Positions 8,622 through 26,730 of a DNA stretch of 26,730 bases are shown piece by piece; the first letter of the stretch is position 1; every line of letters starts with the position of its first letter. The notes beneath the pieces were generated by a model, which did not search any database, had not been told where the DNA came from, and worked only from the letters and a program-made list of their open reading frames with translations. The stretch is from Entamoeba histolytica HM-1:IMSS. Lineage: Eukaryota; Evosea; Mastigamoebida; Endamoebidae. The DNA lies in NCBI RefSeq assembly GCF_000208925.1, contig NW_001915063.1:2400-29129 (forward strand), in the 5' to 3' direction. The translations under genes were made by a program, and so were the position numbers.

Positions 8622-8658
8622 TTAACAACAAATTAAACTCAAAAAGAAGAAATAAAAA

Positions 8659-9463: not shown

Positions 9464-9576
9464 TAGGATACACTAGCACTATATATTGAACTATTGATGA
9501 TTCATAATTTATCATGAAGATACTCATATTCTTATTCATTATATTAATCTTCTTGTTCATTAGATCTTTGACTTTG

Positions 9577-10943: not shown

Positions 10944-11004
10944 TCATTAATTAGAACCATTCTTTAATTGATTAATGAATTCAAATTCAATTAGTTTAAT
11001 CCTA

Positions 11005-11990: not shown

Positions 11991-12112
11991 AGAATAGAAG
12001 AATATGGGATCTAACTAATAAATGAACATCTATCAAATTGAAATGAGAGATAAAAATAAGAGATTTGAGATATTTAAGAGATTGAGAATAACTATATAAT
12101 TCAGAAAGAAAA

Positions 12113-12898
12113 ATGAATCCAAAGAATTTATCAGAGGGAACTGTATGCCAAACATATTCAGTTAGAATTGAATGTAATGTAGCAGATTCAGAAGATGATA
12201 GAGAGATGGTTATAGTCCCATTAATATTAGGACAAGGAACAGATTGGGACAAAATCAACCCAGAGATGTTTCAAATTAAAGACATCAATATAACAATTAA
12301 TTCATATTATCAAAATAGTATGATTGTAAATCAAAGTATTGAGTGGTATATATCAGGAGACTATCCAATGTATGTCCAAGCATTCGCAGGAAATACATAT
12401 AACGAAGGAGATGCAACAAAAATGAATGAATTAATCTTTACAGGAATATATTTATCAGCAAAGTCTAATTCTACAATTCGCTCCAATTTCAAGAGTAAGA
12501 ATATCTACAAGACAGTAATTAACACTGATGATAAGATACAAACTGTAAATAAAGAAGTAATCAGTAGAGGAACAGGAATAGATGAGTCATTAATAAAGAA
12601 TCCAATGTAGTGTTACAATTAGGACATATAGCAATGTCTATTAGAAAAGAAGACTTCAAACAAAGTACATTTCAAGAAAGAATGACAATACAAGTACTAT
12701 GCTTTCAGTAATAGAGAAGAAAGAAGAAAGAAGGAGTTGAAGAGAAATATAATTGTAAAGGAAAGATGCAACATAAACCAGAACCAAGTGAAGATAACAA
12801 GTATGTAGATACGCCAGTAGGAGGAAAGTTAATTTTGAACTATCAAGCATTTATTAGAGCAGAGATTACAATTGCCTATACAAGAAAGCCATACTAAT
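12113..12898 (+). pseudogene. Capsid-like beta protein, frameshifted
   Basis: It starts at ATG 12113, about 40 nt after a GATATTTAAG box. The first frame (165 aa) is beta-rich with alternating hydrophobics, for example FQIKDINITINSYY and QSIEWYISGDYPMYVQ. It shifts frame near 12605. The second frame runs to a TAA-TAG pair at 12709-12714 and stays open in the same register afterwards to a TAA near 12898, ending LNYQAFIRAEITIAYTRKPY. That last strand resembles the C-terminal strand of the capsid-like proteins of region 4 (FNCQWYITVHF). The whole would be about 260 aa. Single-jelly-roll capsid is the best guess. Confidence 0.42.
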
Positions 12899-12957
12899 TG
12901 AATAAGGATTTAAAAAGAAAATAGAATGAAGAAAATAAGAAGAAGTTAAAAAGAGGA

Positions 12958-13224
12958 AATGAGTAAAGGAAAAGATGAAGAAGAGATAAATTCGGAGTAA
13001 TTAGAAGAGATTTTAGAAGAAATGAAAGGAGAAGAAGTGATATAGAAAGAAGTAGAATACAAAAGAGGAAGGATGAAGAAAGGAGTGATGGAGGATAAAG
13101 ACATAAACAAAGTGATTGATAACAACATCAAGAAATTCAAAGAAAATTTCAAAGGAGAAGATGTAATAGTTAGAAATATAGTGAAAAAGACAGATTTCAT
13201 ACAAAAGAAAGAAGTCAGGAAGAG
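12958..13224 (+). pseudogene. Decayed Lys/Glu-rich coiled-coil gene
   Basis: From ATG 12958 the frame is Lys/Glu-rich and interrupted by an in-frame TAA after 13 codons and a TAG 14 codons later, then open to a TGA near 13222. The part from about 13040 on (KKGVMEDKDINKVIDNNIKK region) has heptad-like character. It may be the counterpart of the charged scaffold-like proteins of the neighbouring element, but no direct homology is visible. The long opposite-strand frames here are reverse images of purine-rich coding DNA. Confidence 0.3.
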
Positions 13225-13655
13225 AAAATGAAAGTGAGAAAGAAGATAATATGAGTTCAGAGTATTTAGAAGAGATATTAACATGAATGCAGATAACATA
13301 AGAAAAGAGAGAATTCCAAAATGAAAAGAATTTGTTAAATTTACATTTCAAAACTGATTTTCCAAAAAAAAAACATAGAATAACAAAAATAACAAAATGA
13401 AGAGAATAGTATAAATAACATTTGATAACATTTCTTTTATTCTATTTATAAATAATATAAATCTTTTATATAACACATTTTAGAAGTTACAACGTGTCAC
13501 AAAACACTTTTCATTATTTTTTATTAATTTTTTTAATTTTTCAAAATTATATATAAAGAAAAAAAATGAAAAGAAAAAACCATCAGGTAGTCACACCATA
13601 ACCCTTTGAGCAAGTCACAACGTGGTTATTTTGACTTCTTATTTCTCATTCATCA

Positions 13656-14221
13656 ATGAATACTCCAATAAAGTACAAAGAAAAAGTTGATCTTGTAGTC
13701 GTATTGGTTTTACTGATTATGCTGCTTATTTCTTTTATAACAACAATACACATATGAATTTTACTTATTACAGTACTATGGAAAACTGTAAAAATGCAAT
13801 TAATCCAATTGAAAACCGTACTCTTCAAATTAACTATTCTACTGTTGATGAAATCAGAGACTCTTATTTTCTTATTTATCTCTATTATGATCAAGGATGT
13901 AAAAACTTACAATATATTCTTAATAAAAAGAAATTCTGTTTTCCTCTGAATGGAAGATGGTGGAATTTTACAATAGTAAAGAATACAATCCAAGGTAGGG
14001 AATACTCCGATTCATCTTGTTTAGACATTGTTAGTAATTTCACTACCGACTTAAATGTTTGTTTAACATATCCTCAGAATGTATTTTATATTGATCCTTC
14101 AAAAAATGAATTACCAGGATTAAATTTAGATTATGACTATAACTATAACCATGTTGAGAATAATGCTGAAATGATACTTGGTTATTTAACTATCATGTTA
14201 TGTATCTTCAGTCTCATATAA
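13656..14221 (+). pseudogene. Membrane glycoprotein-like gene, frameshifted
   Basis: ATG 13656 opens a frame encoding a short basic N-terminus and a strong hydrophobic segment (DLVVVLVLLIMLLISF), ending in TGA at 13755-13757. The overlapping frame from ATG 13754 continues for 155 aa. It has several Cys residues, five Asn-X-Ser/Thr sequons (NFT three times, NRT, NYS) and a C-terminal hydrophobic segment (MILGYLTIMLCIFSLI). Signal-anchor, glycosylated Cys-rich ectodomain and C-terminal anchor in this order suggest a surface or envelope-like protein. The ATGA overlap means a one-base change separates the halves. Two proteins made by coupled translation is an alternative but is unusual in this host. 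Confidence 0.45.
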
Positions 14222-14300
14222 GATATTCATTGATAGTACTAGAATCTAATTAATCTATTCTTTGTCTTTTATTTCTTTTTCACTAAAACTAAGAAAAATT

Positions 14301-14954
14301 ATGAGATCAAGACGTACACTAGCATCCACAAGAAGAATTGGACTTACTCCAAAACCTACAGCAAAGAACTTTGATATAAATGATTATGCTGGAAATATCA
14401 CTGTCTATAAAGTGGACCAGATTCTTCAATTTGATCCTACTAATATGAAAAGTGCTACAGCAATAGTAGAGAATAGTAACACATCTTAAATCAATGTTGA
14501 TATGACTAGTTTAAAGACTGAATTATTTAGAACAAAGGCTAATTATGACCTAAGATTTAATGTTAAATTATCTAATGATGATAATGATGATAATACTAAT
14601 ACTAATGAAAAGATTTATGGAATAGGATTCTTATTTCTAATTAATGATAAGAAAACAAAATATGATGTTATTATGTATTGTAATACAAGTGAGAGTCAAA
14701 TTCAAGTTCCTTTAGAAAGTAGTTTATCATTTAATCTTAATGACTCATTCTTCTTATTTGGAGAAAATGCTTACTCCTCACTTACTATTAATCATCCTAT
14801 TGTTTCTATTGAATATAATGATTATCTACAGATCCTATTAAATAATATGCCATTTGGTCTTCAAAGAATCTTAGGTGATTTCACTTTCTCTAATGTTCTC
14901 AGTATAGTAAGTTATGATTATAATGAAACTACTGGTTCATGCTACTTAAACTAA
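14301..14954 (+). pseudogene. Basic-arm structural-like protein with one in-frame TAA
   Basis: ATG 14301 gives MRSRRTLASTRRIG, an Arg-rich arm similar in kind to the start of the capsid at 16682. After 62 codons an in-frame TAA (14487-14489) interrupts. The same frame then continues without break for 155 codons to TAA at 14952-14954. The body is Asn/Asp/Ser/Thr-rich and beta-prone (KIYGIGFLFLIND, SSLSFNLNDSFFLFG). A CAA-to-TAA change would explain the stop. The gene is otherwise intact, so decay is recent or the stop is read through. Minor or major capsid protein is the likely role; homology is not certain. Confidence 0.45.
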
Positions 14955-14972
14955 TTGATTATTTCTTAAAAA

Positions 14973-15989
14973 GGGCAACGAAAAAAGCAAATAATGGAAA
15001 AAGAAGAGAAAGATATAAAAGAATAAAAAGAAATAAGAAGTAGAAGGTGATGAAAAATAAAATTATGAAACTAAGAAAAAGTAGAAGAAGATAAAGAGTA
15101 ATAAAATAGAATAGATAATAAAAGAAGAAATAAAAAGTGTATTTTTAATGTAAAAATTAGAAATATTCAATAATAAGTGTCTAATTTAATTGTGTAAAAT
15201 GATTAACAATATTTTATTAATGAAAAATATTTTACTCTTTTTTATGTTTATTATTTATATGTATAATTTCATTATGATGTTTATTATATATTCAATCATA
15301 TGTGTTATGTTATTATAACATATAATAAGTGATAAAATATAAATGAAAATGATATGAATATATAACATAGATTGAATATAGAAAAACAAAAGAATAATAA
15401 GAATAAATGATAAATAAAACGAGAAATGCTAAAAAATGATATAATAATAAAATCAAAGTATAAAAGATAAAATTAATATTAATATAAATCAAAAGAGAAT
15501 AAATATAAAATGATAATAACATAAAAATGATAAAGATGAATAAGATGAATAAACAAATACAACTAAATAGAAAAGAATAACAATAAGAAAATCTAAATAA
15601 TATAAACATAAAAAATAATAAAATAAGAATAATATAATATATAGATAATAAGAAGAATACAATGATATACATAATATAAACAGAGAAATAAATATAAAAA
15701 TACGATAGATAAATAACATATAAAGAAAAGAATAAAAATAATAAAAATAAATATGAATAATCAAATAATCTATTTCATTAATATTTCATACAAAATGAAT
15801 ACAAATGATTATAAAATATAAACATAAATATTTACAATTCCTGTATTTATCATATTTTTTATTTTTTTATTTTTATTTAGGAGCAAAATATAATAAATGG
15901 AATATTCTATGGATGCAAATTATTTTGCATCTTTTTTCTTTTTTGTAAATTATTTAGATGCATTATTTCTTTGCTTATTTTCGTACCCC
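14973..15989 (-). repeat. Right long inverted repeat of region 3
   Basis: About 1,017 bp, inverted relative to 8659-9463. Matching blocks include both ends, the near-palindrome at 15912-15931 and the segment ACAATTCCTGTATTTATCAT (inverted at about 8793-8812). It is longer than the left copy because of an extra A/T-rich stretch around 15440-15780. No genes; long hydrophobic frames on the minus strand are low-complexity artefacts. Its outer 24 bp are also the outer end of the 265-bp repeat of region 4. Confidence 0.62.
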
Positions 15990-16230
15990 ATTTAAATAAT
16001 ATCAAAACATAAATATTAAAAATATATAAACATATTAATTACATATTTTAATGAATTTGATTCAATTGATTTTAGTAATCCTCATAAATATAATTTACAA
16101 AAGAAATTAAGAAATAATAGAGAAATAATACATGTTATATTAACAATAAATTGATTAATTCACAAAGAGTTAGTAAGGAGATTAAAAGCACTGAAATCTT
16201 TAAATATAAATGGTTTATAACTCATTGTGA
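15966..16230 (+). repeat. Left 265-bp terminal inverted repeat
   Basis: Compared by eye with the reverse complement of 26466-26730 it is colinear over 265 bases, with one difference seen (T at 16222 against C). It contains TTCTTTGCTTATTTTCGTAC at its outer side and ends at ATTGTGA, which is also the outer arm of the palindrome. No gene. Confidence 0.85.
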
Positions 16231-16394
16231 CATGCAGCTGACGTGGCAATTATATATATATTTATTGTAGTCACAATATTATACTAACCACAATCGTGCG
16301 TAGCACGATATTGCCCTTCGCACGATTGTGACTAGTATAATATTGTGGTACAATAATTATTATACAAAATGCCACGTCAACTGTCAGTCACAAT
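16224..16394. other. 171-nt near-perfect palindrome, candidate replication origin
   Basis: Nested arms pair in order: ATTGTGAC (16224-16231) with 16387-16394; TGACGTGGCA (16239-16248) with 16370-16379; TTATTGTA (16262-16269) with 16349-16356; CACAATATTATACTA (16272-16286) with 16333-16347; CACAATCGTGCG (16289-16300) with 16319-16330. The 18-nt apex is TAGCACGATATTGCCCTT. It is markedly more GC-rich than its surroundings. HUH Rep proteins start replication at stem-loops, and CGATATTGC in the apex agrees with the CRESS consensus NANTATTAC at all but two positions. Origin function is inferred. Confidence 0.65.
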
Positions 16395-16681
16395 TTAATG
16401 ATGATGGATTAATGATATTGTGAGTGTATGTATTGATAATGGGAGTTTACGACCCTTTTAGCATTAAAAATCTTTTTTAATCATAATCAGGTTCAGTCAT
16501 CCCATTCACTACGTTACTGTGATCCTCTTCACCTTATGATTACGACTAAAACGATTATTTAATTTCTTACGGGTCTATACATCATTTTAATACAGGATAT
16601 CATTATCCATCATATATTATGTATCAAATAAGCTTCAGCTATTTAAACTCGAATTTAGATTCAACTGAGTTATTGAAATAA
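16395..16681 (+). promoter_or_regulatory. Capsid upstream region with TATTTAAA box
   Basis: No gene. CTATTTAAACTC at 16639-16650 lies about 35-40 nt before the capsid ATG at 16682, followed by an initiator-like GATTCAA. The region between the palindrome and this box contains an inverted pair around TTTTTAATCATAATC and TTATGATTACGAC that may be regulatory. Confidence 0.5.
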
Positions 16682-18205
16682 ATGAGACGTACAAGAAGAG
16701 CCACGGCTACTAGACCAACTTCAACTAGAAGAAATTTAAGAAGTACTATGGCAGGGAATTTAAAAGCTGCTTTTCAACAAAGAGATTCAACTCAAGTAGT
16801 GTTGAATGCTACTGAAACAGTACAATTAGCTATTCCAGCAAATACTAATGGTGCTACAACTGTAATGAATGTTACTAAATTGCTTTGCGGCATGGAATTC
16901 TTCCAACATTATGCTGGAATGTATGATCAATTTAAAATAGATGGAGTGTCAGTGTCAGCTGAAATTGTTTACAATACATTTGGTCAAGCTGCAATGACAT
17001 TTCCTAATGTTATCACTGCATGGGATAGAAATGGTATAGATAAAGCAGTAGCAAGTCAAGTAACACAAGAAGGACAAGGTGTATTAAGTAATGTACCAAT
17101 AGTACCAGGTCCTTATCAAGTGAGTTCATATTCAAGTGCAGTAAGTAGAGCATATTATCCAGGAGCTAGATGGGGTATTACAAGAAGACTTGTTGCATCT
17201 TCATTACAAGAGAAGAGTATTTATCTTCCAACAGTAAAGACTGCTGAAGTATTAACTGAATCTACTTTATATGCAGCATGGAATCCTGATTTCTTACTTT
17301 CTGTTCTTTTAGGAAATCAAACAGCTACATGTCAAACACTTGTATTTAATTTAACATGGTCATGGGTTGTTTCACTTAGAGAATTGAGAAAAAGTACACT
17401 TGGTGTTATTCCAACACCTGCTGCTAATTCACTTGGTTATGCTAATACTAATGCTGGTACAGTTGCATCAGGTACAAATAATGCAATGATTCCTGTTAGT
17501 ATGACTACAACTAACAATGGAGGAGTTGTTACTACAGATAATCCAATTTATACATCAATGGTACAAACAACAGGTGGACAACTATCAAGTTCATCTAATA
17601 CATGGACAGTTGATTCATTTAAGATGTATTTGAATAATATATTTTATAATGCAGGAATTTCACAAGTTAATGCTATAGATTTGAATTATGATAAATTTAC
17701 TGGAGTAGTTCCATCTCAAAGTAATCAAAATTTAACTATTAATGCAGGTGGTACAAGTGTTATGAGAGTACGTTTAGTTGTATTTGCTACTGCTGGTACT
17801 CTTGGTGCTGGAGTAAAAGGATATAATATTTCTGCTTATTTATTTGGTAATGCTAATACTAATGCACATACTGTTACTATTTCAACTGATGCTGATACTT
17901 ATGTTATTGCAAGTAATGTATTTGATATTTATGGAATTAACTTACCTGATACTTCTACTGGTGCTAATTCAGAAGTTAAAATTAATGTTAAAAGTACTAC
18001 TGGTTCATCAACTGATGTAGTTGGATCTCTTTTATATGCTTATAGTGGAACAGTTGAAGATGTTGCAGTTACTATTGCTTCAGGTGCATTACCAGTTGCT
18101 GCTGGAACAGTTGGAAATGGAGTATTGAATCCAGTTGTACTTGTTAGTAAAACATTTGTTACTGGATTGTTTTCAAATGATAACCAAAAACTTATTAGTG
18201 CTTAA
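16682..18205 (+). CDS. Major capsid protein, single-jelly-roll CRESS type
   Basis: 507 aa. Residues 1-20 form an Arg-rich arm (RRTRR, STRRNLR) for binding the packaged nucleic acid. Residues about 45-240 look like a single-jelly-roll shell domain: YDQFKIDGVSV (81-91), TAWDRNG (112-118), YYPGARWGI (148-156), LQEKSIYLPT (165-174) and a C-terminal strand FNLTWSWVVSLREL (222-235). This order and wording fit capsids of CRESS-DNA and related small viruses. The remaining 270 residues are Ser/Thr/Asn/Gly-rich and beta-prone, like a projecting surface domain, which makes the protein about twice the size of a simple CRESS capsid. It has its own promoter and converges on the next gene with 10 nt between stops. 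Codon use is slightly richer in GC than its neighbours. Confidence 0.78.
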   Translation: MRRTRRATATRPTSTRRNLRSTMAGNLKAAFQQRDSTQVVLNATETVQLAIPANTNGATTVMNVTKLLCGMEFFQHYAGMYDQFKIDGVSVSAEIVYNTFGQAAMTFPNVITAWDRNGIDKAVASQVTQEGQGVLSNVPIVPGPYQVSSYSSAVSRAYYPGARWGITRRLVASSLQEKSIYLPTVKTAEVLTESTLYAAWNPDFLLSVLLGNQTATCQTLVFNLTWSWVVSLRELRKSTLGVIPTPAANSLGYANTNAGTVASGTNNAMIPVSMTTTNNGGVVTTDNPIYTSMVQTTGGQLSSSSNTWTVDSFKMYLNNIFYNAGISQVNAIDLNYDKFTGVVPSQSNQNLTINAGGTSVMRVRLVVFATAGTLGAGVKGYNISAYLFGNANTNAHTVTISTDADTYVIASNVFDIYGINLPDTSTGANSEVKINVKSTTGSSTDVVGSLLYAYSGTVEDVAVTIASGALPVAAGTVGNGVLNPVVLVSKTFVTGLFSNDNQKLISA

Positions 18206-18215
18206 ATTAATTGAA

Positions 18216-18989
18216 TTATTTTATTGGGAAGTTTTCTGAAAGTAGAGATGAGTTCAATGACATTTTAAAGTTTGCATTACTTTTTTCAGAACCAATATTT
18301 TCTGAATCATAAGAAATTAGTTTAATTGCTTCTTCTATAGTTGTTCCTTTACAAAAACGAATAAGACCAGTATTTGGACTTTCTGTATTTAATTTCAATA
18401 TATAATATATTAAATAATTGTATATAATAAAGGTTTTTTCTATTTCCATTTCATATATAAATAAGCCATCACTTTTAGTAAGTCTAAATAATATAAATTG
18501 ACAATTTTCTTTTTTTGTAATTTTTATGTATTTATTACTAGTTGAGGTAGTTACTACTTTATGTAAATTTCCATCTGCTGGTATTAAGTCTGTAATATCA
18601 GTGTCTTCTGTAATATTTATTATTTCTGGTGCTACTGTTGCTAATGTATAAGTATTGTTTTGATATACTGATATAGAATCTATTTTATATTGTGGTACAT
18701 TTGCAGTGACATAAACATGATCAAGTGCATCAAGGTTATCATCCGGACTGATAGTGTATGAACCATTTTCAGTAATAGTAACTGCTTTTGTTTGGATTTT
18801 TGGTTCAGGTACTTGAGTGATTAATTGAATACTGTTAATATAATTTTCACTGGTGAATGTTGTTATTCCATTTGTAGTTGTTTCGATAGTTATATCATCT
18901 GTATTTACTGTTACTTTGAATGTATTTTTATTTATTTCATCTTTTCTTATTAAAGTTTCTTGTTTTGTTGTCTTGTTAATGATAGACAT
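18216..18989 (-). CDS. Virion-associated protein with phage-type structural repeat
   Basis: 257 aa. Residues about 68-99 carry KAVTITENGSYT followed by a spacer and VYVTANVP, the hallmark of the short beta repeat common in tail, fibre and surface proteins of Firmicutes phages (xTENGTYTxxxxYxxxxxVxVNVP). A weaker second copy (ISVYQNNTYTL) begins near residue 105. The N-terminus is Thr-rich. The C-terminal half has one hydrophobic stretch (IYNYLIYYILKLN) not typical of a membrane anchor. I infer a capsid decoration or attachment protein. Such a repeat in a eukaryotic virus-like element suggests acquisition from bacteria or phages in the amoeba's food or gut surroundings. Homology rests on one repeat unit. 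Confidence 0.6.
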   Translation of the reverse strand: MSIINKTTKQETLIRKDEINKNTFKVTVNTDDITIETTTNGITTFTSENYINSIQLITQVPEPKIQTKAVTITENGSYTISPDDNLDALDHVYVTANVPQYKIDSISVYQNNTYTLATVAPEIINITEDTDITDLIPADGNLHKVVTTSTSNKYIKITKKENCQFILFRLTKSDGLFIYEMEIEKTFIIYNYLIYYILKLNTESPNTGLIRFCKGTTIEEAIKLISYDSENIGSEKSNANFKMSLNSSLLSENFPIK

Positions 18990-19013
18990 GAATGATAAAA
19001 ATGAGTTAATTAA

Positions 19014-19129
19014 TATAATTGTTTATCTTTTATAATTAAAATAAATGTAGATTCTTCTTTTTCTGGAAATGTTATAGTTACTTTTTCATATGCTGAATTA
19101 TTTTCTGCTTGATATGTGAGTGTCTCTCT
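19014..19129 (-). pseudogene. In-frame coding-like fragment after the second capsid gene
   Basis: Right after the TAA that ends the 236-aa gene (19130-19132), the same frame stays open for 39 codons to the next TAA. It encodes a beta-prone peptide with RETLTYQAENNSAYEKVTIT. This resembles the N-terminus of the adjacent 257-aa protein (QETLIRKDEINKNTFKVTV). It may be the leftover of a duplicated neighbour gene or a readthrough extension of the capsid-like protein. Confidence 0.35.
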
Positions 19130-19840
19130 TTATTTGATTTCTTCATTAGTTAAATTGACATTTAAATCAAGTAAATTCATTGTTTGTTCTTCTTCTATTG
19201 GAGTGCAAATATATCTATCAAAATGAACAGTGATATACCATTGACAATTGAATTTAATACTTTTATTATCATTGCTATTTGGTGTTTCTACTCCTATGAA
19301 GTACCATGGATAAAAAGGAATACTTACATTTTCATTTGTAAATGGTTGAAGTTCAGTATTATCAAATTTCCAATATCTTTTTACTCTAGTAGGTCCATAA
19401 TAGTTTTGTTCTTGTAATGTCATAGCTTTAATAATTGTATTAATTTGAAATGCTCCACCTGGATAATAGACTTGTTGTTGTAAGTGAGTACTTGAATTAA
19501 TCATATTAATTACTTTATTTATATCTTTGTCATCTGCAGTGTCTTGATCAATATTGGAACGAATATATGTTGGAAACCATGTAGTACTAACAATAGGAAA
19601 ATTTAATCCTATTTCTTCTACATTTATTTCACCTATTGAGAGACTAATTAATGCTTTAAATATTTTAACTCTTTTAAAACAATTACAGAATGATTTGTAA
19701 TTAGTGTTATTGAAGAGTAAATCAAAAAGAGAAGTTGTATATACTCCCATTCCTTTATTTAATTTAACTTCAATTGGGGTATTAAAAACAAATTCTACTT
19801 CATGTGTATTATTAGGACAGTTATTTCTAGAACGGATCAT
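19130..19840 (-). CDS. Second, divergent capsid-like (single-jelly-roll) protein
   Basis: 236 aa. It lacks a long basic arm but is colinear with the shell domain of the 507-aa capsid: YYPGGAFQI at 125-133 and LQEQNYYGPT at 142-151 match YYPGARWGI and LQEKSIYLPT with identical spacing between them. FNCQWYITVHFDRY at 197-210 matches the terminal strand, and FKRVKIFKALISLSIG (55-70) matches the early strand. I infer a minor capsid or vertex protein derived by duplication. It is divergent to the membrane-protein gene; their starts are only 33 nt apart and share an upstream region containing GATGAACTGATT. Its stop is followed by 39 further open codons. Confidence 0.68.
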   Translation of the reverse strand: MIRSRNNCPNNTHEVEFVFNTPIEVKLNKGMGVYTTSLFDLLFNNTNYKSFCNCFKRVKIFKALISLSIGEINVEEIGLNFPIVSTTWFPTYIRSNIDQDTADDKDINKVINMINSSTHLQQQVYYPGGAFQINTIIKAMTLQEQNYYGPTRVKRYWKFDNTELQPFTNENVSIPFYPWYFIGVETPNSNDNKSIKFNCQWYITVHFDRYICTPIEEEQTMNLLDLNVNLTNEEIK

Positions 19841-19873
19841 TTGAATATAAAGATGAACTGATTAATTCATAAT
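19841..19873. promoter_or_regulatory. Compact divergent promoter with GAACT element
   Basis: Only 33 nt separate the two divergent ATGs. GATGAACTGATT at 19852-19863 contains the GAACT element described for Entamoeba core promoters, followed by TTAATTCATAA, similar to the initiator AAAAATTCA, just before the ATG at 19874. Core elements for the opposite gene must lie within coding sequence. Confidence 0.45.
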
Positions 19874-20098
19874 ATGAGTGCAGACTCCAGTGATTCTAAT
19901 CACTCGTCTAAATGTACCGAAGAAGTGTTTAAAGAAAGTACATGGAATATTATCCGTAAAATAGTCATGCTTCTATTATCATGTATATTATTAATAGCGA
20001 GTTGTTTCTTTGCATTTTTTGAAAGTAGAAGACAAGGGAATGTTATGAATGCAGTAGAAGAAGTATTAGAAGTAGTAAAAACTTTAATTCCTAATTAA
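19874..20098 (+). CDS. Small single-pass membrane protein
   Basis: 74 aa. A Ser-rich N-terminus (1-25) is followed by a transmembrane helix at about 29-50 (IVMLLLSCILLIASCFFAFF), bordered by Arg/Lys on the N side and SRR on the C side. An amphipathic helix (NAVEEVLEVVKTLI) closes the protein. No family is recognised. It lies 12 nt ahead of the 247-aa gene on the same strand, so the two may share a transcript. Possible roles are membrane attachment, entry or exit (viroporin-like); none is demonstrated. Confidence 0.68.
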   Translation: MSADSSDSNHSSKCTEEVFKESTWNIIRKIVMLLLSCILLIASCFFAFFESRRQGNVMNAVEEVLEVVKTLIPN

Positions 20099-20110
20099 CT
20101 TTTTATTTTA

Positions 20111-20854
20111 ATGTGTTTGGTTAAGAAGAGAAAACAACGATTAAATCTCCATAAAAGAAGATTTGGTTCATATGGTTCAATACGATTTAATTATGATGGA
20201 ATACCAAGAAGTAATCAAACAAAATATAAACCATTTAATACTTCCATGTATATGAGTGGTAGATTACAGAATAATAATCAAGGAGTATATTATACTCAAC
20301 CTCGACCAAATAGAAAAGAAACATTAGATGAAATGCAAACACATAGAAAGAGAAAAATGATTAATGATGTAGATGAAGATTTAGAACAATTGAATAATAA
20401 TCAAGCATATATTAGAAGAGTAGTACCACCTGAATTATGGAAGAGAATTGAAGATGTTGCATTTGAACCAAATGTAGTAAGAAGATATGAAAAGTTGCAA
20501 GATATTCTAGTACCAGAAGCTATTACTACTCATTCATCCAAAGATTATTATCATAAAATTCATATTGGTGCAAGAACAAATAGAAGTGATAATAAAGGTA
20601 CCATCTTTAAAACAGGTGATTTTGAGAGAAAAGGATTGCATCAATATTTACATAAACAACCTCATTTTAATAAAATAGAAAGTGGGAAAGAGAAATATGA
20701 AATGATGAAGAATGTTTATAATCAATTAGAACGATGGGGAACAAGTGATGATCGTACTGATTATGAAAAGGTATTACTTAGAGTATCACCTGATGATGAT
20801 AAAATTAATCATTTTAAAACAATCAAAGGAAACATTAAATATTATAATAAATAA
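20111..20854 (+). CDS. Basic protein with GSYG motif, putative minor virion protein
   Basis: 247 aa, basic and Tyr/Asn/Arg-rich. The N-terminus is KKRKQRLNLHKRRFGSYGSI. The core KRRFGSYGSI (residues 15-24) recurs as KRKWGSYGNI at residues 11-20 of the 504-aa protein of the same element. The body (about 90-247) looks helical with many charged residues and no enzyme motif. The stop at 20854 abuts the end of the convergent 106-aa gene. A shared N-terminal tag on two otherwise different proteins suggests a common targeting, capsid-binding or processing signal. DNA-condensing core protein is one plausible role. Confidence 0.65.
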   Translation: MCLVKKRKQRLNLHKRRFGSYGSIRFNYDGIPRSNQTKYKPFNTSMYMSGRLQNNNQGVYYTQPRPNRKETLDEMQTHRKRKMINDVDEDLEQLNNNQAYIRRVVPPELWKRIEDVAFEPNVVRRYEKLQDILVPEAITTHSSKDYYHKIHIGARTNRSDNKGTIFKTGDFERKGLHQYLHKQPHFNKIESGKEKYEMMKNVYNQLERWGTSDDRTDYEKVLLRVSPDDDKINHFKTIKGNIKYYNK

Positions 20855-21175
20855 TTAATTATCTTCTTTCTTTGGTTTACTTTCTTCTTCTTTCTTTTTA
20901 TCTTTTAATACAAATTTAGTTTTGTATTCTTTCTTTGGTACTTCTGGTGTCTTTACTTTTTTAATCTGTGGTTTATCCCACATTAAGCCTTTCTTTCTGG
21001 CTATTCTATACACCAAGCTCCAATATGGCTTTTTTAATCCTTTTAATTCTTCTTCCTTGGTGTATTCTTCCACTGAATTTATTAGCTTGACCATTGTGTC
21101 TATGAGTTCATCTGCATCCATAGATACAAATTTACCCATAGCGTGGTCAGCTATTAAGTCTTTTATGGTTGTCAT
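20855..21175 (-). CDS. 106-aa protein, homologue of the 68-aa protein at 2276
   Basis: Residues 1-68 are colinear with the gene at 2276-2482: MTTIKDLI start, Tyr-Trp at 51-52, then LVYRI and a Trp-Asp pair. Residues 69-106 are a Lys-rich tail. The protein looks helical and its function is unknown. Its promoter is the clearest in the window: TATTTAAA at 21208-21215 (minus strand), GAACT at 21192-21196 and an ATTCA before the ATG at 21175. The end abuts the 247-aa gene with no spacer. Conservation between two elements implies a core, non-accessory role such as DNA binding or regulation. Confidence 0.72.
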   Translation of the reverse strand: MTTIKDLIADHAMGKFVSMDADELIDTMVKLINSVEEYTKEEELKGLKKPYWSLVYRIARKKGLMWDKPQIKKVKTPEVPKKEYKTKFVLKDKKKEEESKPKKEDN

Positions 21176-21191
21176 GTATGAATGATTAAAC

Positions 21192-21215
21192 AGTTCAAAA
21201 TAAATAGTTTAAATA
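21192..21215 (-). promoter_or_regulatory. Entamoeba-type core promoter (TATTTAAA + GAACT)
   Basis: On the minus strand, TATTTAAA starts 40 nt and GAACT 21 nt before the ATG at 21175, with CATTCATAC as a possible initiator. All three core elements known from Entamoeba occur in the expected order. Confidence 0.65.
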
Positions 21216-21244
21216 TTCAATTTATCTCTTTTCGGAGTACATTA

Positions 21245-22759
21245 TCAAAACTCATACTCGTACTCATATTCTATTTCTGGTTCTTCTACTTCTTCTATAT
21301 CTTCTTCTATTTCTTCTTCTTCATTTACATCAACGTTTTCGTCATTATGTTTAAAGTTATTCCAATATTTTTGTTGATCTTGTATTGTCAACTCTTTTGG
21401 AATGTCTTCAACTCTTAATTTTTCTTCTTCTTGTTCTATTATTGGTTTAATTTGTTCTGGTAGAATATTTTTGGAATCATTTTCTTCTTTCTTTTGTGTT
21501 GGTTTATAATTGTGTAATGCGTCTTTAGTAAGTAATCTATATCTTTTTTCTAATTCATCAACTTCACGTTTTCTGTTTTTAACGTCAGTGAAGAGTTCTT
21601 TATAATTAAATTTAGAATCAAACTTCTTAACTTCTTTGAGTTTTCGTTCTTTTTTGACAATAACTGGTTTTTTGATTCTTTTTTCTTCTTTCTCATCTCT
21701 TTTCTCTTCTATTTTTTCATTTGGTAATGAATTATTCATTATTTCATTATTTTGAACTTCTTCTTTTTCGTTCAATGCTTCATTTTGTGGATGTTCTATT
21801 TTTGTTTCATTTATTGCTTCTTCTCTTTCTTGTTTTTCTTCTAATGGTAAGAACTGTTGTAATTCTTCTAAATGTATTCCTCGTTCGAAATCTCTCTTTT
21901 CTTGATATTCAATGGTATCTTCTAAATGATGTTTTCTTTTGGAATTATCTCTATTTTTATCTATCCATTGTTTGATAGTATTTCTATTCTCTCTTGGTGG
22001 TCTAGGTGGTATAATATTTCTATCTGGTTCTTTTTCATCTTTATGTATTTCTATTTCTTCTTCCATTGGTTTATCTTTTATTTTTTCAAGTAGTTGTGGT
22101 ATTTTATCTTCTTCTACATTATCTGCTAGTATTATATCATTATTTTCATTTGTTAATATTAATGGTATAGTAGTATCTTCCACATTATCATTCTCTTGTT
22201 CTAATTTATTATTGTTTTCTATTATTTCTTGTTGAATTATAGCTAATTTATTTCCTAATTGTTCTGGATCATTAATATCAATTATATCTTCTAATATTCT
22301 GAGTGTATTATCATCATATGTAAGTATTTCTTCTGGTTTATTTGGATTTACTATTTCATATATATTTGTACTGTTATCATTATCATTGTTATTCTCTTCT
22401 TCTCCTTCTTTAATTGAGTCTTCATTAACATTCATTTCTTTATTATATTCTTCATAATCTGGATCATCAAATATTGATTCTTCTGTCTTACTATAATCTT
22501 CATTAATCAAGTCTGGTTTATTTACTCTTTCTGGTTCATTGTCTGGATCAAAGTAATTATTAGCTTCATAACTATCTGGATGTAAATCTACATCATCTTC
22601 TTCAAAATATTCATCTTCTCCATTATCTGGATCATAAGTAGTATTCATTCCATTGTTAAATGAATAATCATTATAATTATCATAGTATTGATTGTTATGA
22701 ATATTTCCATAACTTCCCCATTTTCGTTTTAATACATTTGGTCTATACCAATAACTCAT
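21245..22759 (-). CDS. Acidic 504-aa scaffold-like protein with GSYG motif
   Basis: 504 aa, dominated by Glu, Asp, Lys and Asn. The N-terminus has KRKWGSYGNI (11-20), shared with the 247-aa protein, then Tyr/Asn-rich and acidic segments. A proline-rich patch (IPPRPPRENR) lies near the middle, followed by long Glu/Lys-rich helices likely to form coiled coils. It ends in a run of Glu and the motif EYEYEYEF. No catalytic motif is seen. Low-complexity acidic coiled-coil proteins often act as assembly scaffolds or host-factor binders; this is inference. It lies 36 nt downstream of the Rep gene on the same strand, suggesting co-expression. Long plus-strand frames here are shadows. Confidence 0.65.
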   Translation of the reverse strand: MSYWYRPNVLKRKWGSYGNIHNNQYYDNYNDYSFNNGMNTTYDPDNGEDEYFEEDDVDLHPDSYEANNYFDPDNEPERVNKPDLINEDYSKTEESIFDDPDYEEYNKEMNVNEDSIKEGEEENNNDNDNSTNIYEIVNPNKPEEILTYDDNTLRILEDIIDINDPEQLGNKLAIIQQEIIENNNKLEQENDNVEDTTIPLILTNENNDIILADNVEEDKIPQLLEKIKDKPMEEEIEIHKDEKEPDRNIIPPRPPRENRNTIKQWIDKNRDNSKRKHHLEDTIEYQEKRDFERGIHLEELQQFLPLEEKQEREEAINETKIEHPQNEALNEKEEVQNNEIMNNSLPNEKIEEKRDEKEEKRIKKPVIVKKERKLKEVKKFDSKFNYKELFTDVKNRKREVDELEKRYRLLTKDALHNYKPTQKKEENDSKNILPEQIKPIIEQEEEKLRVEDIPKELTIQDQQKYWNNFKHNDENVDVNEEEEIEEDIEEVEEPEIEYEYEYEF

Positions 22760-22795
22760 TATTAAAATAAAAATAAAAGATAAACCAAAAAAGAG

Positions 22796-24229
22796 TTAAT
22801 TAAAATTTCCACCTGACCACCTACTTGCTAATTCTCTAGCTTGTTGAGTTAATTCAACATCTGGTTCTTTGGGTGGTATTATTGCTGTATCATTCTCTTT
22901 TAACAGAGATAATATTAAAGATTTTCTTTTCTCTCTGTTTTCTTCTACTGGCTTTGGTTCTTCAAGTGCTACAGGAGGAGGCATACTTTCTTCTTCTAAT
23001 TCTTCTATTATATCATTTAAATCATCAATTGTATCATCTCCCATATCATCTAAACTAACATCTTCTTCAACTTCATTCTCCAATAGCATTTCAACTAGTT
23101 TTGGATCTAATCCATCATATTTACTTTTATCTTGTACTGATTCTTCCTTAGGTGGTGGTTCAATATATAATTTCTCATTAGTTTGGAGTACTACTGTGTT
23201 TTTCTCCAACCAATCGAAGTCTTCGAACTCTTTGGCTGTTCGTTGAAGAGCGTTCCAACTTCCAGGATTTAAGACTAAAACAGTTGGTATGGAAGTAACT
23301 CTAGCATGTGAGTATTTCACATTGATGGTTATCTGTTCACCTCTCGTACTTATAAGCGATTTAAATTCTGGCCAAATGATGTCATTAAGGTTAGCATCGT
23401 CAAATAATCTGATGTCATATTTTAAGCTTTCATTATGACCATCCATCATAAATCTGCCTCGGAATTCATCTACTCTTAAATTTTTTAGTAAATCGTTTAT
23501 GAATTCTGTTTTCCCCATTTTCGTATTACTCACGATTACTAAAGTTTTCACTCTTTTCGTTTTACCACTTAAAGCGGAATTTAACCAGACACAGCTGTTT
23601 TTTACGACTGGGTTATCTTCCTTCCAAGGCATAAGTTTGATTTTTATTCTCTCATAGTTATCTCGACTGTGCTCTTGAGCCCATACAGTATCAAACTTGG
23701 CTACGTTATTCATATATCCCTTTAAACTTATGTTTTTTAAATAGGCATGCGCTTCTTCTAGGTCTGGCATTCGGAGTGCTTTTCCTATGTCTATATCTCC
23801 CAATCTCCCTTTATTCTTATCCATCTTTCCTATTTCTTCAAATACCGCTCCTTCATTGGGATGTTTTTCTCCTTGTCTCTTCAGATATTCTATAATAGCA
23901 TTGAAAGATCCATCGTAGTTTTTGTTTTCGGTTATTTTTTCAAAGTGTAAGAAGTGTCTTTCGTTATTAATTTGGATAAAAGGCTTTTTTCTGACGTGGG
24001 CTACTTCTTCGAGCTCGAAGAATGCATGAGCATGTTTATTATTTCCTTGTGTTGTTTTTCCGATGGCTAAATATTTTATATGGGCTCGCTTGTTTTTTGT
24101 TGAGCACCACTGTTCAATCGCGTTTTTCAGGAATTCTTTATTTGGAGTTTTGGTGTTTGGTGTCATGTTTATTGTAATAAAGCCGTGCATGGCTTTAAAT
24201 TCGTAATACCTTTTCTGTGACTCTGTCAT
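22796..24229 (-). CDS. rep: CRESS-type replication initiator Rep (HUH nickase + SF3-like helicase)
   Basis: 477 aa. HUH endonuclease domain: motif I GFITINMT (16-23), motif II KHAHAFFEL (65-73) with H66 and H68 as metal ligands, motif III EYLKRQG (114-120) with Y115 as the nicking tyrosine. The usual Lys three residues after Tyr is Arg here, with a Lys one place earlier. Helicase domain: Walker A SNTKMGKT (234-241), Walker B LFDDAN (275-280), motif C strand TVLVLN ending in N321. Rep cuts the origin, joins covalently to the 5' end and unwinds DNA for rolling-circle or rolling-hairpin replication. Typical CRESS Reps have about 300-350 residues; here about 120 acidic, Pro-containing residues (355-477) are added. 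The gene reads away from the iteron pair at 24308-24328. Confidence 0.85.
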   Translation of the reverse strand: MTESQKRYYEFKAMHGFITINMTPNTKTPNKEFLKNAIEQWCSTKNKRAHIKYLAIGKTTQGNNKHAHAFFELEEVAHVRKKPFIQINNERHFLHFEKITENKNYDGSFNAIIEYLKRQGEKHPNEGAVFEEIGKMDKNKGRLGDIDIGKALRMPDLEEAHAYLKNISLKGYMNNVAKFDTVWAQEHSRDNYERIKIKLMPWKEDNPVVKNSCVWLNSALSGKTKRVKTLVIVSNTKMGKTEFINDLLKNLRVDEFRGRFMMDGHNESLKYDIRLFDDANLNDIIWPEFKSLISTRGEQITINVKYSHARVTSIPTVLVLNPGSWNALQRTAKEFEDFDWLEKNTVVLQTNEKLYIEPPPKEESVQDKSKYDGLDPKLVEMLLENEVEEDVSLDDMGDDTIDDLNDIIEELEEESMPPPVALEEPKPVEENREKRKSLILSLLKENDTAIIPPKEPDVELTQQARELASRWSGGNFN

Positions 24230-24307
24230 GTAGTTGGATGATTTGATAGTAACGAGTTGAACTATTTATATCATTCGGAATTTTCTATTTTGTCTGTTTA
24301 TTGTATG

Positions 24308-24328
24308 TATGAGGTAATGTATGAGGTA
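24308..24328 (+). promoter_or_regulatory. Iteron pair between Rep and the small gene
   Basis: TATGAGGTA at 24308-24316 and again at 24320-24328, a 12-nt step. They lie 79-99 bp upstream of the Rep start in the divergent intergenic region, beyond a TATAAATAG-like box at about 24260-24270. Paired iterons beside the rep promoter are typical Rep-binding sites that also allow self-regulation. Binding is inferred. Confidence 0.45.
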
Positions 24329-24431
24329 GAAAATGATTTTTAAACTATAAGGAATAATAAAAATTTAATTCAATTAATTTAGAAATTCCTCTTTAAGTGT
24401 CTGTTTGTCGTGTTGTTTACACGTTTCATGT

Positions 24432-24443
24432 GTTATTTAAACT
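24432..24443 (+). promoter_or_regulatory. TATTTAAA box for 91-aa gene
   Basis: GTTATTTAAACT about 25-35 nt before the ATG at 24466. Because the box falls inside the longer open frame that starts at 24397, it decides for the downstream ATG. Confidence 0.55.
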
Positions 24444-24465
24444 GGAATACTTTTTATTTTATTCG

Positions 24466-24741
24466 ATGTTCCCTCTCTTGTCTAGCATTGTGCAAGACAT
24501 CGACGAAACCTGTAAAGGTCTCCTCGAGAGTGATAGTTTGGATTTGGACACCAAGTGTCTAATCTATTCTATCCTCTATTTTATGAGGAGATTCGAGGAG
24601 ACACACTATAATTATAGTGATGTTTTATTTTATTACCTTACAGGTTTCGTCGATTCTTGCACTAAGGATCAACGATTTAATAAACTAGGAGGTTTATTAG
24701 AATTACTTGAAAATTTCCATTTCGTTAATGATTTGGAATAA
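24466..24741 (+). CDS. Small helical protein, copy A of duplicated pair
   Basis: 91 aa from ATG 24466, chosen because the TATA box lies 25-35 nt upstream; the frame is open from ATG 24397. Its start LLSSIVQDIDET and centre CLIYSILYFMRRFE, then YNYSD, match the gene at 25378 (LLSAIAREVKSQ, GLIYWFRVWD, LKYSD), so the two are paralogues. No family is recognised; it is probably all-helical. Its coding sequence contains a long inverted repeat (24490-24515 with 24638-24662). It converges on the 115-aa gene, and the two-gene arrangement is repeated once to the right. Confidence 0.65.
   Translation: MFPLLSSIVQDIDETCKGLLESDSLDLDTKCLIYSILYFMRRFEETHYNYSDVLFYYLTGFVDSCTKDQRFNKLGGLLELLENFHFVNDLE
24490..24662. 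repeat. Intragenic long hairpin
   Basis: GTGCAAGA (24490-24497), one bulged base and ATCGACGAAACCTGTAA (24499-24515) are perfectly complementary to 24638-24662. An inner stem GTCTCCTCGA (24518-24527) pairs with 24593-24602. All lies inside the 91-aa gene. The arms total 35 paired positions, far beyond chance. Confidence 0.7.
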
Positions 24742-24817
24742 TAATTAATTTACTATTTTTTATTTTTTTATTTTTTATTTAATAAACAAAATAATATTAA
24801 AAAGAATTAAATTAATT

Positions 24818-25165
24818 TTAATTTTCTTTTGGAGCTCTTGGCTTCTTGGATAATTCCCTTGAAATTGCAACTCTTCTTATTCTTTGCCTTTCTGTTGCTC
24901 TTATTCTAAAGGCATCCAAAATATCTTTAAATTCCTTTTTAATATCAGAAGACATTTCAAATAGAGCTTCGACTAATTCACTCTCCTCTTCTAATATCAT
25001 ATTAAATTTATCTTCTTCTAAATAATATTTCTCCTCCTTCTTGTAGCATTCGACGAGATCATCGCAGATGTCTTCTAATTCATCCAATGCGATAAAATAG
25101 TCTTTTAAAGAGACTATATTTATATTTTCGATTTTTGTGGCTTCAATTTTATCTTCTGTATCCAT
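24818..25165 (-). CDS. Small charged helical protein, copy A
   Basis: 115 aa. It is mostly acidic helices (SLKDYFIALDELEDICDDLV) with a basic C-terminal tail (RIRATERQRIRR, SKKPRAPK). The motif (I/V)SLKD and the following helix pattern, the length and the basic tail match the 129-aa protein at 25823, so they are paralogues. Function is unknown. A TATTTAAA box lies at 25198-25205 on the minus strand, 33 nt before the ATG. It is convergent with the 91-aa gene and separated from it by 76 A/T-rich bases. Confidence 0.65.
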   Translation of the reverse strand: MDTEDKIEATKIENINIVSLKDYFIALDELEDICDDLVECYKKEEKYYLEEDKFNMILEEESELVEALFEMSSDIKKEFKDILDAFRIRATERQRIRRVAISRELSKKPRAPKEN

Positions 25166-25197
25166 TGTCTGGTATGGTATTCTTATTTCTTAAACAG

Positions 25198-25205
25198 TTT
25201 AAATA
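25198..25205 (-). promoter_or_regulatory. TATTTAAA box for 115-aa gene
   Basis: TATTTAAA on the minus strand, 33 nt upstream of the ATG at 25165. Confidence 0.5.
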
Positions 25206-25308
25206 TTTAGATGAAACAGGCATTCAGACAGATGGAGAGACAAAACAGACATTTTCTATTTTTATTATATTATATTTTTATTATAAGTATAGTATAAAAG
25301 TCAATCAT

Positions 25309-25329
25309 TACCTCATACACTACCTCATA
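25309..25329 (-). promoter_or_regulatory. Second iteron pair, inverted
   Basis: TACCTCATA at 25309-25317 and 25321-25329 is the exact inverted counterpart, with the same 12-nt step, of the pair at 24308-24328. It lies just upstream of the TATTTAAA box (25345-25355) of the next gene. A related single site, AACCTCATA, occurs at 26386-26394. Confidence 0.5.
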
Positions 25330-25377
25330 TCAGCCATTTAATTTGTTATTTAAACAGCAATAATATTTTAGCATTCA

Positions 25378-25686
25378 ATGTCTTTTAGTGGTACTTTTAG
25401 AAGGACACGTCTTTCTGTACTACTCTCGGCTATTGCCAGGGAAGTAAAGTCCCAACTCAGTCGAGCCAATGATAATAATACTGAAATAGTATTATATGGT
25501 TTAATTTATTGGTTCCGAGTTTGGGATCATAAGTACCATTTAAAGTACTCGGACTAAATGAATAAATGGCTCGACTACATAATGGTGGATATTTATTCCA
25601 CCATTATGGATTGTGGTCCTCTTTTATTCTTACTCAATACACTTTATTCAGGCAGATATATTCCTGATATTGAGCACTTTAATTGA
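25378..25686 (+). pseudogene. Small helical protein, copy B, with in-frame TAA
   Basis: ATG 25378 lies 23-33 nt after the box GTTATTTAAAC. It gives 59 codons to a TAA at 25555-25557; the same frame restarts with ATG and runs to TGA at 25684-25686. Both parts align with the 91-aa paralogue: the first part with its N-terminal two thirds (LLSAI, LIYW, YSD), the second (KWLDYIMVDI, LLFLLNTLYSG) with its C-terminal third. So it is one gene split by a stop, by decay or functional readthrough, or two half-proteins. Its DNA is hairpin-rich: AGTCGAGCCA (25459-25468) pairs with 25567-25576, and a perfect 12-bp stem CATAATGGTGGA (25578-25589) pairs with 25597-25608. Confidence 0.55.
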
Positions 25687-25769
25687 ATGTTTTTTATTCC
25701 TTTTTATTTTATTTTATTATTGCTTATTGCTTATTGTTTAAATAACAAATTATTTTCTTTTTTAAAATT

Positions 25770-25803
25770 TTGAATAACAAAAATAAATAACAAAATTTTA
25801 AAA
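25770..25803. terminator. A/T inverted repeat between convergent genes
   Basis: TAAAATTTTG is followed by CAAAATTTTA about 15 bases later, between the convergent ends of the copy-B genes. It may help separate or polyadenylate the two transcripts; in such AT-rich DNA the significance is modest. Confidence 0.25.
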
Positions 25804-25822
25804 TTAATTAAATTAAATTAAA

Positions 25823-26212
25823 CTAGAGAGGTCTGGTTTTTCTCCTCTCTGGTTTTGTCTCTTCTTCTTTCTTTTTCTTCTCCGCTTCATCGATTCTCTT
25901 CTCTCTGTTTTCTCTTCTAATACTTTCTTTTATTTTATTAATAAGAAGAACATTGTTCTTCTTGAATATTTTAATACTTTCATCTATCTCATCTATGGAT
26001 TTAATATGTCCTTCTAAAATTAGTTTCATTGAAATGAGGGGATATTCCCCAAGTGATAATTCTGATCCCCGTGCTAATATATTACAATTTTCAGCAACTA
26101 CTGAAATGTCATTAATAAGCTGAACAACATCTTTGAGTGAGATGGGTCTATCGACTATTTCGGTTTCTTCTTCTGATACATCTCGAGTACATCTATTTGG
26201 AGTTCCGTACAT
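25823..26212 (-). CDS. Small charged helical protein, copy B
   Basis: 129 aa. PISLKDVVQLINDI near residues 22-35 begins a helical region aligned with the 115-aa copy A. The C-terminus is very basic and Glu/Lys-rich (IRRENREKRIDEAEKKKK, then RRKTRPL), again like copy A but longer. No family is recognised. A TAATATTTAAT variant box lies about 37 nt before the ATG. It is convergent with the split copy-B gene. A basic tail on acidic helices could serve nucleic-acid or partner binding; this is unproven. Confidence 0.62.
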   Translation of the reverse strand: MYGTPNRCTRDVSEEETEIVDRPISLKDVVQLINDISVVAENCNILARGSELSLGEYPLISMKLILEGHIKSIDEIDESIKIFKKNNVLLINKIKESIRRENREKRIDEAEKKKKEEETKPERRKTRPL

Positions 26213-26465
26213 TGTTTGATCTAATGACCATATCTAGATGGTAGGGTCATTAAATATTAGTATAGTATTATTCTTAATAGTTTATTTAACTATTCTTTGG
26301 ACATGTTCCACTCAAGGTGTTCATTACGAATGAAATCCCGTTTTCATACGTGAAACACCTATAAATATTTGGGACAATAAGTAATAACCTCATATCAAGT
26401 ATAATAATAAATAGTATTTTTACTATTAATTATTTACTATAAATTGTGACTGCTGACGTCATCTA
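26213..26465. other. Right subterminal region with stem-loops
   Basis: No gene. A 46-nt imperfect stem-loop lies at 26315-26360 (AGGTGTT with AACACCT, ATGAAA with TTTCAT, apex near TCCCG). A single iteron-like AACCTCATA lies at 26386-26394. At 26443-26472, ATTGTGA and TCACAAT flank the 8-bp palindrome TGACGTCA, which corresponds to the base of the large left palindrome with its centre missing. Confidence 0.5.
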
Positions 26466-26730
26466 TCACAATGGGTTATAAACCATTTATATTTAAAGAT
26501 TTCAGTGCTTTTAATCTCCTTACTAACTCTTTGTGAATTAATCAATTTATTGTTAATATAACATGTATTATTTCTCTATTATTTCTTAATTTCTTTTGTA
26601 AATTATATTTATGAGGATTACTAAAATCAATTGAATCAAATTCATTAAAATATGTAATTAATATGTTTATATATTTTTAATATTTATGTTTTGATATTAT
26701 TTAAATGGGGTACGAAAATAAGCAAAGAAA
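26466..26730 (-). repeat. Right 265-bp terminal inverted repeat, cut by window end
   Basis: Inverted copy of 15966-16230 with one difference noticed. The last 24 bases are the start of the longer repeat family seen at 8659 and 15989, so the repeat very likely continues past the window. Confidence 0.85.

Follow-up and report, generated by a model that had tools for sequence, protein, structure and literature searches.

Replication proteins (Reps) of the kind typical of circular Rep-encoding single-stranded (CRESS) DNA viruses are known from several systems that each resemble, in part, the element considered here. In Entamoeba, Rep and Cap integrated together represent the Naryaviridae and Nenyaviridae, whose genomes are circles of Rep and Cap and whose description does not use the word 'inverted' in its main text (Kinsella 2020, PMC7493932). 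The International Committee on Taxonomy of Viruses (ICTV) has ratified the order Lineavirales, family Oomyviridae, for linear single-stranded DNA (ssDNA) Cressdnaviricota with likely Stramenopiles hosts; these have a CRESS-type Rep, as does the present element, on a genome that is linear rather than circular (PMC12451638). In adomaviruses and other larger animal viruses, a CRESS-type Rep accompanies a gene set richer than that of classic CRESS viruses, and the virion proteins are adenovirus-like; parvoviruses with an auxiliary CressRep are described in the same preprint, the text of which contains neither 'Entamoeba' nor 'inverted repeat' (PMC11071296). Here we analyze a stretch of 26,730 nucleotides from Entamoeba histolytica HM-1:IMSS (hereinafter the window; C189:2400-29129 of a 16.95-Mb assembly of 392 contigs, to which the other C numbers also refer), in which a CRESS-type Rep and a capsid protein candidate, CP1, lie together with further genes between inverted repeats. 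The element unit of the window falls between 15966 and 26730, with 11 listed open reading frames (ORFs).

The element is large, multigenic and bounded by inverted repeats, and with at least 10 conserved ORFs between these it departs from the small circle of Rep and Cap only, which we take to define the Naryaviridae and Nenyaviridae. It differs from the Oomyviridae in its amoebozoan host, its size of at least 10–16 kb, its gene number of at least 10 and its repeats of at least 1–2 kb; the 'parvovirus-like hybrid' genomes are small. We think it fairly likely that it belongs to a family of large virus-like CRESS-Rep elements of Entamoeba that are bounded by terminal inverted repeats (TIRs), carry capsid candidates and start their replication at hairpins; the starting points probably are the hairpins in the repeats. 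The repeats, palindromes and two principal genes are placed as follows:

15966..16230, forward strand: left, capsid-side arm of the inverted repeat, 264/265 the same as the right arm; the sequence is also present at C123 and C69
26466..26730, reverse strand: right, Rep-side arm of the inverted repeat, ending at the last contig base
15998..16197, forward strand: interspersed-repeat fragment within the left arm, with its mirror image at 26499-26698; other copies are about 180 nt longer
14976..15965, forward strand: high-copy genomic repeat next to the left arm, AT-rich (85%) and not element-specific
16225..16393, no strand: long palindrome/hairpin with a two-armed, partly degraded head, a candidate origin/terminal hairpin (z -12.3, 0/200 shuffles)
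26444..26471, no strand: scar of a lost palindrome on the Rep side, in which one TTGTGAC and TGACGT motifs remain
16682..18205, forward strand: CP1, capsid protein candidate by sequence comparison, 507 aa, with an Arg-rich N-terminus
22796..24229, reverse strand: Rep, 477 aa, HUH endonuclease and superfamily 3 (SF3) helicase, with H66, H68, Y115, G239, K240, D277, D278 and N321

Rep relatives were detected on 15 contigs, namely those of group A (C189, C69, C123, C239, C11, C48, C142, C174 and C335), those of group B (C88, C82, C72, C86 and C49, at 23–27% identity) and, weakly, C348. CP1 relatives are present on 12 contigs (C189, C48, C174, C123, C69, C239, C72, C86, C88, C82, C49 and C142), and Rep and CP1 matches stand together on 12, C189 included. 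The two genes face each other in a constant relative orientation on the 10 contigs in which CP1 is more than a mere fragment; C239 and C142 retain CP1 fragments only, the Reps of the former being broken and interrupted by stops and the latter being rearranged. Both frames are open in one piece on 8 of the 12 (C189, C69, C123, C88, C82, C72, C86 and C49), while Rep is in pieces on C48, C174, C142 and C239. Thus, the conjecture that Rep and capsid are separate insertions failed, and sequence comparison indicates that Rep and the capsid candidate form one unit. Named protein relatives come from E. histolytica, E. nuttalli and E. dispar, and the C123 Rep is 100% identical to CL6EHI_095460 of E. 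histolytica, which by itself places the assembly in or very near that species.

The near-identical 265-bp inverted repeat reported in the sequence-only reading that preceded this analysis indeed exists, with a single mismatch and with its right arm truncated by the contig end. That this arm stops exactly at the contig end, and that much of its outer part is an interspersed repeat, might be taken to mean that separate small CRESS insertions were juxtaposed by chance, with repeats mis-assembled at the end of a contig. However, the gene block recurs in C189, C123 and C69, and partly in group B C88; C123 displays the same hairpin at both ends in opposite orientation; and as C88 and C72 each hold both inverted arms of about 2.0 kb within one contig, the repeats are unlikely to be an assembly artefact. 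We find this explanation hardly credible.

Group B, a sister family of about 16 kb in the same genome, encodes homologues of the Rep and of the capsid, and its repeats measure 2.0 kb or more. It offers the cleanest repeats (the C88 arms, of about 2.0 kb, match at 98.5%), and parts of both arms are present on all five group B contigs, several arms being cut by contig ends. C88, the one group B contig read for this purpose, also encodes a deoxynucleoside kinase (Pfam dNK, 5.4e-10). Group A elements, seen as integrated copies alone, measure at least about 10 kb. The proposal of a repeat-bounded multigene element with a parvovirus-like architecture thus gained support from the further group A copies and from group B, whereas the exact boundaries and the 10.8-kb size given for it were not supported.

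In the Rep, H66, H68, Y115, G239, K240, D277, D278 and N321 are invariant in all 20 aligned sequences (the window, five other G000 copies and 14 of 25 database proteins); these form what we take to be the HUH and SF3 motifs. An HUH endonuclease with a single catalytic tyrosine joined to an SF3 helicase is the combination characteristic of the Cressdnaviricota, and the predicted structure matches the Reps of Vientovirus, wheat dwarf virus (WDV) and tomato yellow leaf curl virus (TYLCV). Among isolated endonuclease domains, the matches listed are Reps of redondoviruses and geminiviruses; no isolated endonuclease domain of adeno-associated virus (AAV) or another parvovirus stands among the top 50 matches of the Rep in VIA-align, a scope that excludes nothing. 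Pfam gave only weak matches across the 20 Reps (Gemini_AL1 in three, best 0.005; PPV_E1_C in three, best 7.4e-4) and no match for the window's own, all 29 proteins listed in the Rep profile search are Entamoeba-named or unnamed, the Rep and capsid profiles had 0 matches among PDB sequences, and IMG/VR scans with the Rep, the group B Rep, CP1 and both profiles recovered no relative. The invariant catalytic residues and the fold matches to CRESS Reps bear out the earlier call of a CRESS-type HUH/SF3 Rep. Separately, C348 (L042:390-2691) has a divergent Rep apparently divided between two ORFs of 258 aa and 487 aa, the latter SF3-like by eye; Pfam returned no match for this split Rep.

A long palindrome separates the outer repeat from the unique region. 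Among nine group A ends inspected, five (both ends of C69, both of C123 and the capsid end of C174) fold into a two-armed T, i.e., a stem that bears two short arms, both closed by loops of 3 nt; the capsid end of C189, C48 and C11 keep the long hairpin with an altered head, and the Rep end of C189 has lost it. Five ends folded against 200 dinucleotide shuffles each gave z-scores of -19.9, -12.3, -16.3, -15.0 and -18.8, no shuffle being as good. The arms occur in one order at C69, the C123 capsid end and C189 and in the inverted order at the C123 Rep end and C174. Reverse-complementing one of the two C123 heads makes it identical to the other throughout the aligned stretch. Such a flip/flop relation between heads is known from parvoviruses. 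In an alignment of six ends (five of them distinct, the rows being of two sequence types), 10 of 37 base pairs, located in the stem and in both arms, changed on both sides under a structure taken from, and so favouring, the C123 row; this compares with 0/500 shuffles and 0–2 such pairs in slid alignments. The count of further pair types was reached by 54/500 shuffles. The covariation might stem from selection on the fold or from copying of one arm to the other; either way, it implies that the folded form exists.

The hairpin also carries iterons. TTGTGAC occurs five times within 15966-26730, always at the two ends, and in each of the pieces L011-L014 all copies (7/7) lie in the hairpin; outside the element the motif recurs twice, at 13496 and 13614, and it is absent from the group B pieces. 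A nonanucleotide on a stem-loop origin is characteristic of the Cressdnaviricota; by eye, the stretch TATATTAC was recognized in the hairpin stem of C69 and C123. Group B arms contain a 54-bp palindrome, which was likewise folded and is conserved at 100% in nine of ten arms and at 96% in one.

The T palindrome with two short arms, 3-nt loops, flip/flop orientations and stem iterons is reminiscent of the Parvoviridae (AAV) as we know them. The element differs from these in that its T-shaped palindromes, although found in both orientations, are internal to a longer repeat, in a genome two to three times the usual parvovirus size, and in that its endonuclease-domain matches are to redondovirus and geminivirus Reps. 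It probably works like a hairpin-replicating virus, but to count it among the Parvoviridae or the Oomyviridae would be conjecture. In the mechanism we posit, the iteron-rich T palindrome near the inner end of each repeat would be the Rep-binding and nicking site; Rep would nick the extruded hairpin, and the free 3' end would then prime copying through the palindrome. Hairpin transfer in the style of parvoviruses would yield the flip and flop orientations and copy changes from repeat to repeat in a linearly replicating genome. Capsid proteins encoded by the element itself may package the displaced DNA, and its copies, spread by transposition or infection, would integrate in AT-rich, repeat-rich host DNA.

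Alternatively, a circle with two inverted repeats might replicate by the rolling-circle route, the palindrome being an ordinary CRESS cruciform origin and the integrated copies linearized circles. The planarian element PEVE serves as the model for this: it is reportedly an extrachromosomal, Rep-encoding virus-like element with a parvovirus-like Rep and inverted repeats flanking unique regions, and we know of no T-hairpin in it. The usual action of CRESS Reps on circles, the position of the hairpin inside the repeat rather than at a terminus and the similar lengths of four group B contigs (16.1–16.8 kb; the fifth is 14.4 kb) agree with a circle. Yet no head-to-tail overlap of contig ends was found in the four tested (C88, C69, C48 and C82), and such a two-armed T, present in either orientation, is a usual trait of linear genomes with hairpin ends. 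The outer sequence common to C88 and C82 and unlike that of C86 also speaks against a circle, although C86 there enters a high-copy repeat. On balance, we consider the circle unlikely, though of appreciable weight.

Returning to the hairpin-replicating virus-like family, its taxonomic reading can be offered only tentatively, as something short of an even proposition: the elements could constitute a new order-level group of large (10–17 kb) amoeba viruses that have a cressdnavirus Rep, abandoned circular replication for parvovirus-style hairpins in long inverted repeats and gained capsid paralogues, fibre-like proteins and nucleotide-metabolism genes, having evolved independently of, or as an intermediate towards, parvovirus replication. 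The sequence-only reading knew of no such large repeat-bounded form, and in the literature searched we too found no CRESS-Rep element of 10–16 kb that combines long inverted repeats with T-shaped palindromes in flip and flop; that novelty is narrowed by the linear CRESS viruses already ratified as Lineavirales/Oomyviridae (PMC12451638). As both these and larger CRESS-Rep viruses are on record, no new principle is involved. What makes the element interesting is that its CRESS-type Rep occurs together with hairpin ends and inverted repeats, in a genome several-fold larger than usual. The element may stand midway between two modes of viral DNA replication, and it allows one to test, in an amoeba that can be cultured, how ssDNA viruses that replicate as circles turned into larger DNA viruses or into linear ones with hairpin ends. 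Virus particles have been seen in E. histolytica since 1972, their genome being listed as unstudied (PMC9973342); for these particles the element is no more than a candidate genome.

The repeat reaches further and is more mixed in make-up than at first sight, and only candidate outer boundaries can be given. Positions 15966 and 26730 were rejected as element ends, as homology among the copies extends outward (that of C69 and C123 with the window runs far left of 15966) and the contig stops at 26730. Over 287 nt, the window's right end shows 100% identity to the C123 capsid end and 99.7% to the C69 Rep end, and it matches the C123 Rep end at 96.5% over 172 nt. Sequences similar to 15998-16197 form an interspersed repeat found on 35 other contigs; these matches were rejected as additional element copies because on C143 and C288, the two checked, the matches overlap an ORF that by eye is like the endonuclease of long interspersed nuclear elements (LINEs); Pfam had no match for the ORFs on these two contigs. 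The adjoining 14976-15965 is a high-copy AT-rich repeat (judged on the best 40 of 552 candidates scored). C48 at its capsid end and C11 at its Rep end have a different outer sequence, with about 713 nt in common at 90%; the next-best place in the genome reaches 148 bits at 74%, versus 759 bits for C11 (among the best 40 of 94 candidates), and the C123 Rep end retains only about 133 nt of this type. By these comparisons the outer repeat is lineage-specific and located at opposite ends of different copies, which argues for its moving along with the element and being copied from one end to the other. Position 16198, where the homology of C48 and C11 to the window stops, was rejected as the true terminus, since the approximately 713 nt beyond are common to both at opposite ends; insertion there of a short interspersed nuclear element (SINE) with a duplicated target was also rejected, the motif occurring only once in the C48 and C11 stretches. 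For group B, C88:16214 is a candidate end only, as C86 diverges there into a high-copy repeat.

All 11 element ORFs of the window have homologues in C123 and C69, and the Rep, CP1, fibre-like and 115-aa proteins also on group B C88, in a comparison whose E-values and bit scores refer to a database of 103 ORFs. Besides Rep and CP1, these ORFs are:

18216..18989, reverse strand: 257-aa protein, fibre-like by eye, homologous to the group B protein at C88:12630-13694; dN/dS 1.2–1.45
19130..19840, reverse strand: 236-aa protein, weak CP1 relative, possible second capsid protein; dN/dS 0.13–0.37
19874..20098, forward strand: 74-aa protein, hydrophobic over one stretch (by eye) and identical in 3/3 copies compared; Pfam Pox_A14 E 0.016, below cut-off
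20111..20854, forward strand: 247-aa protein with no function assigned, at least 437 aa in C69
20855..21175, reverse strand: 106-aa protein with a weak relative (14 bits) at 2276-2482, in the window's other element
21245..22759, reverse strand: 504-aa acidic protein, two frames in C123
24466..24741, forward strand: 91-aa conserved protein, by sequence comparison
24818..25165, reverse strand: 115-aa conserved protein with a group B homologue
25823..26212, reverse strand: 129-aa fast-evolving protein, by sequence comparison

The jelly-roll capsids of the sequence-only reading were sustained in part. CP1 stands as a capsid candidate by virtue of its Arg-rich N-terminus and of database relatives, some of which carry the UniProt name 'Capsid protein'; its match to Pfam Circo_capsid (E 0.044) is below cut-off, and a jelly-roll is putative, as the fold model is poor and the structural matches would not stand alone. 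The 19130-19840 protein matches CP1 at 13–15 bits and, at 236 aa, is 50–55 residues shorter than its counterparts in C123 (286 aa) and C69 (291 aa).

Substitution rates were estimated across C189, C123 and C69, leaving out the 20111 ORF, with one pair for g21245 (split in C123), g20855 of C123 cut by the locus edge and one g25823 pair lacking dS. For Rep, dS is 1.0–1.3 and dN/dS 0.10–0.14, values indicative of strong purifying selection; for CP1, dS is 0.03–0.07 and dN/dS 0.58, 1.45 and 0.69. In 400-nt steps, identity is 69–83% over 23166-24366 (Rep), 90–99% over CP1 and 96–99% over 21966-22766. Taken together, the alignments show recombinational mosaicism and repeat homogenization along with long-term selection on an active Rep.

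These data bear on another alternative, a non-packaging Rep-driven TIR transposon merely carrying virus-derived genes. The geminivirus-like transposon of Tuber is, like the element, repeated, TIR-bounded and equipped with a Rep gene, and differs in its 37-bp TIRs, its two transposase ORFs and the lack of a capsid among its listed genes (Liu 2011, PMC3198968, which also names PEVE). That the Entamoeba copies adjoin other repeats would suit such a transposon. Against it, CP1 is open over all 507 codons in each of the five group A copies in which the gene is covered in full (fragments alone being left on C239 and C142), and the 19130 gene is under purifying selection (0.13–0.37) while the fibre-like gene evolves fast (1.2–1.45), as expected of virion genes. 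We hold this alternative to be quite improbable.

Long terminal inverted repeats, a trait of Polintons/Mavericks, are present in both groups. The suggestion of a self-synthesizing transposon in the Polinton sense was not upheld, since Pfam detected neither integrase nor DNA polymerase domains in 10 group A ORFs (E ≤ 0.1) and neither integrase nor PolB domains in 10 group B ORFs (E ≤ 0.05). Pfam also missed the Rep, which makes this negative weak by itself; ORFs between the arms reach 507 aa at most, which is short for a PolB. An Rfam scan of the window gave 0 matches and a PHROGs search nothing useful.

To the left of the element, window 8653-15994 consists of AT-rich inverted repeats (about 0.8–1.0 kb) around a 5.5-kb segment with short or broken ORFs, of which 11000-13400 has one more full copy, on C318 at 99%. 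The segment 9466-14959 was rejected as a relative of the element, the single match being of 21 residues (E 0.043). This region is possibly related to Eh_ERE1, of which the AT-rich repeat next to the element may be a part. Eh_ERE1 is an AT-rich Entamoeba repeat with a core between 2,221-bp TIRs; it differs from the element in its single 369-aa ORF, and its description mentions neither 'capsid' nor 'Rep protein' (Lorenzi 2008, PMC2657916). ORF fragments at 7821-8621 look like transposase remnants by eye, with no transposase match in Pfam.

Window 26-3737 is part of another virus-like element, with a Pox_A32-like ATPase at 1012-1761 (Pfam 1.3e-5) and relatives of the latter on C57, C38, C118, C279, C146, C142, C239 and C23. 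C189, C142 and C239 each contain both a CRESS Rep copy and an A32-like ATPase, which might reflect nesting in repeat clusters or a functional link. On C118, the neighbours of the ATPase include a dNK-dUTPase fusion and a second dNK. Fully complementary inverted blocks of 402 and 185 nt (L068:1207-1764, 2446-3053), the inner pair 681 nt apart, adjoin the ATPase element there and resemble back-to-back element ends. The same contig has a separate small CRESS-like insertion (C118:11375-13641; L069:1875-4141), with an Arg-rich 532-aa ORF, judged by eye to be capsid-like, and part of a Rep helicase (Pfam RNA_helicase, 2.3e-7).
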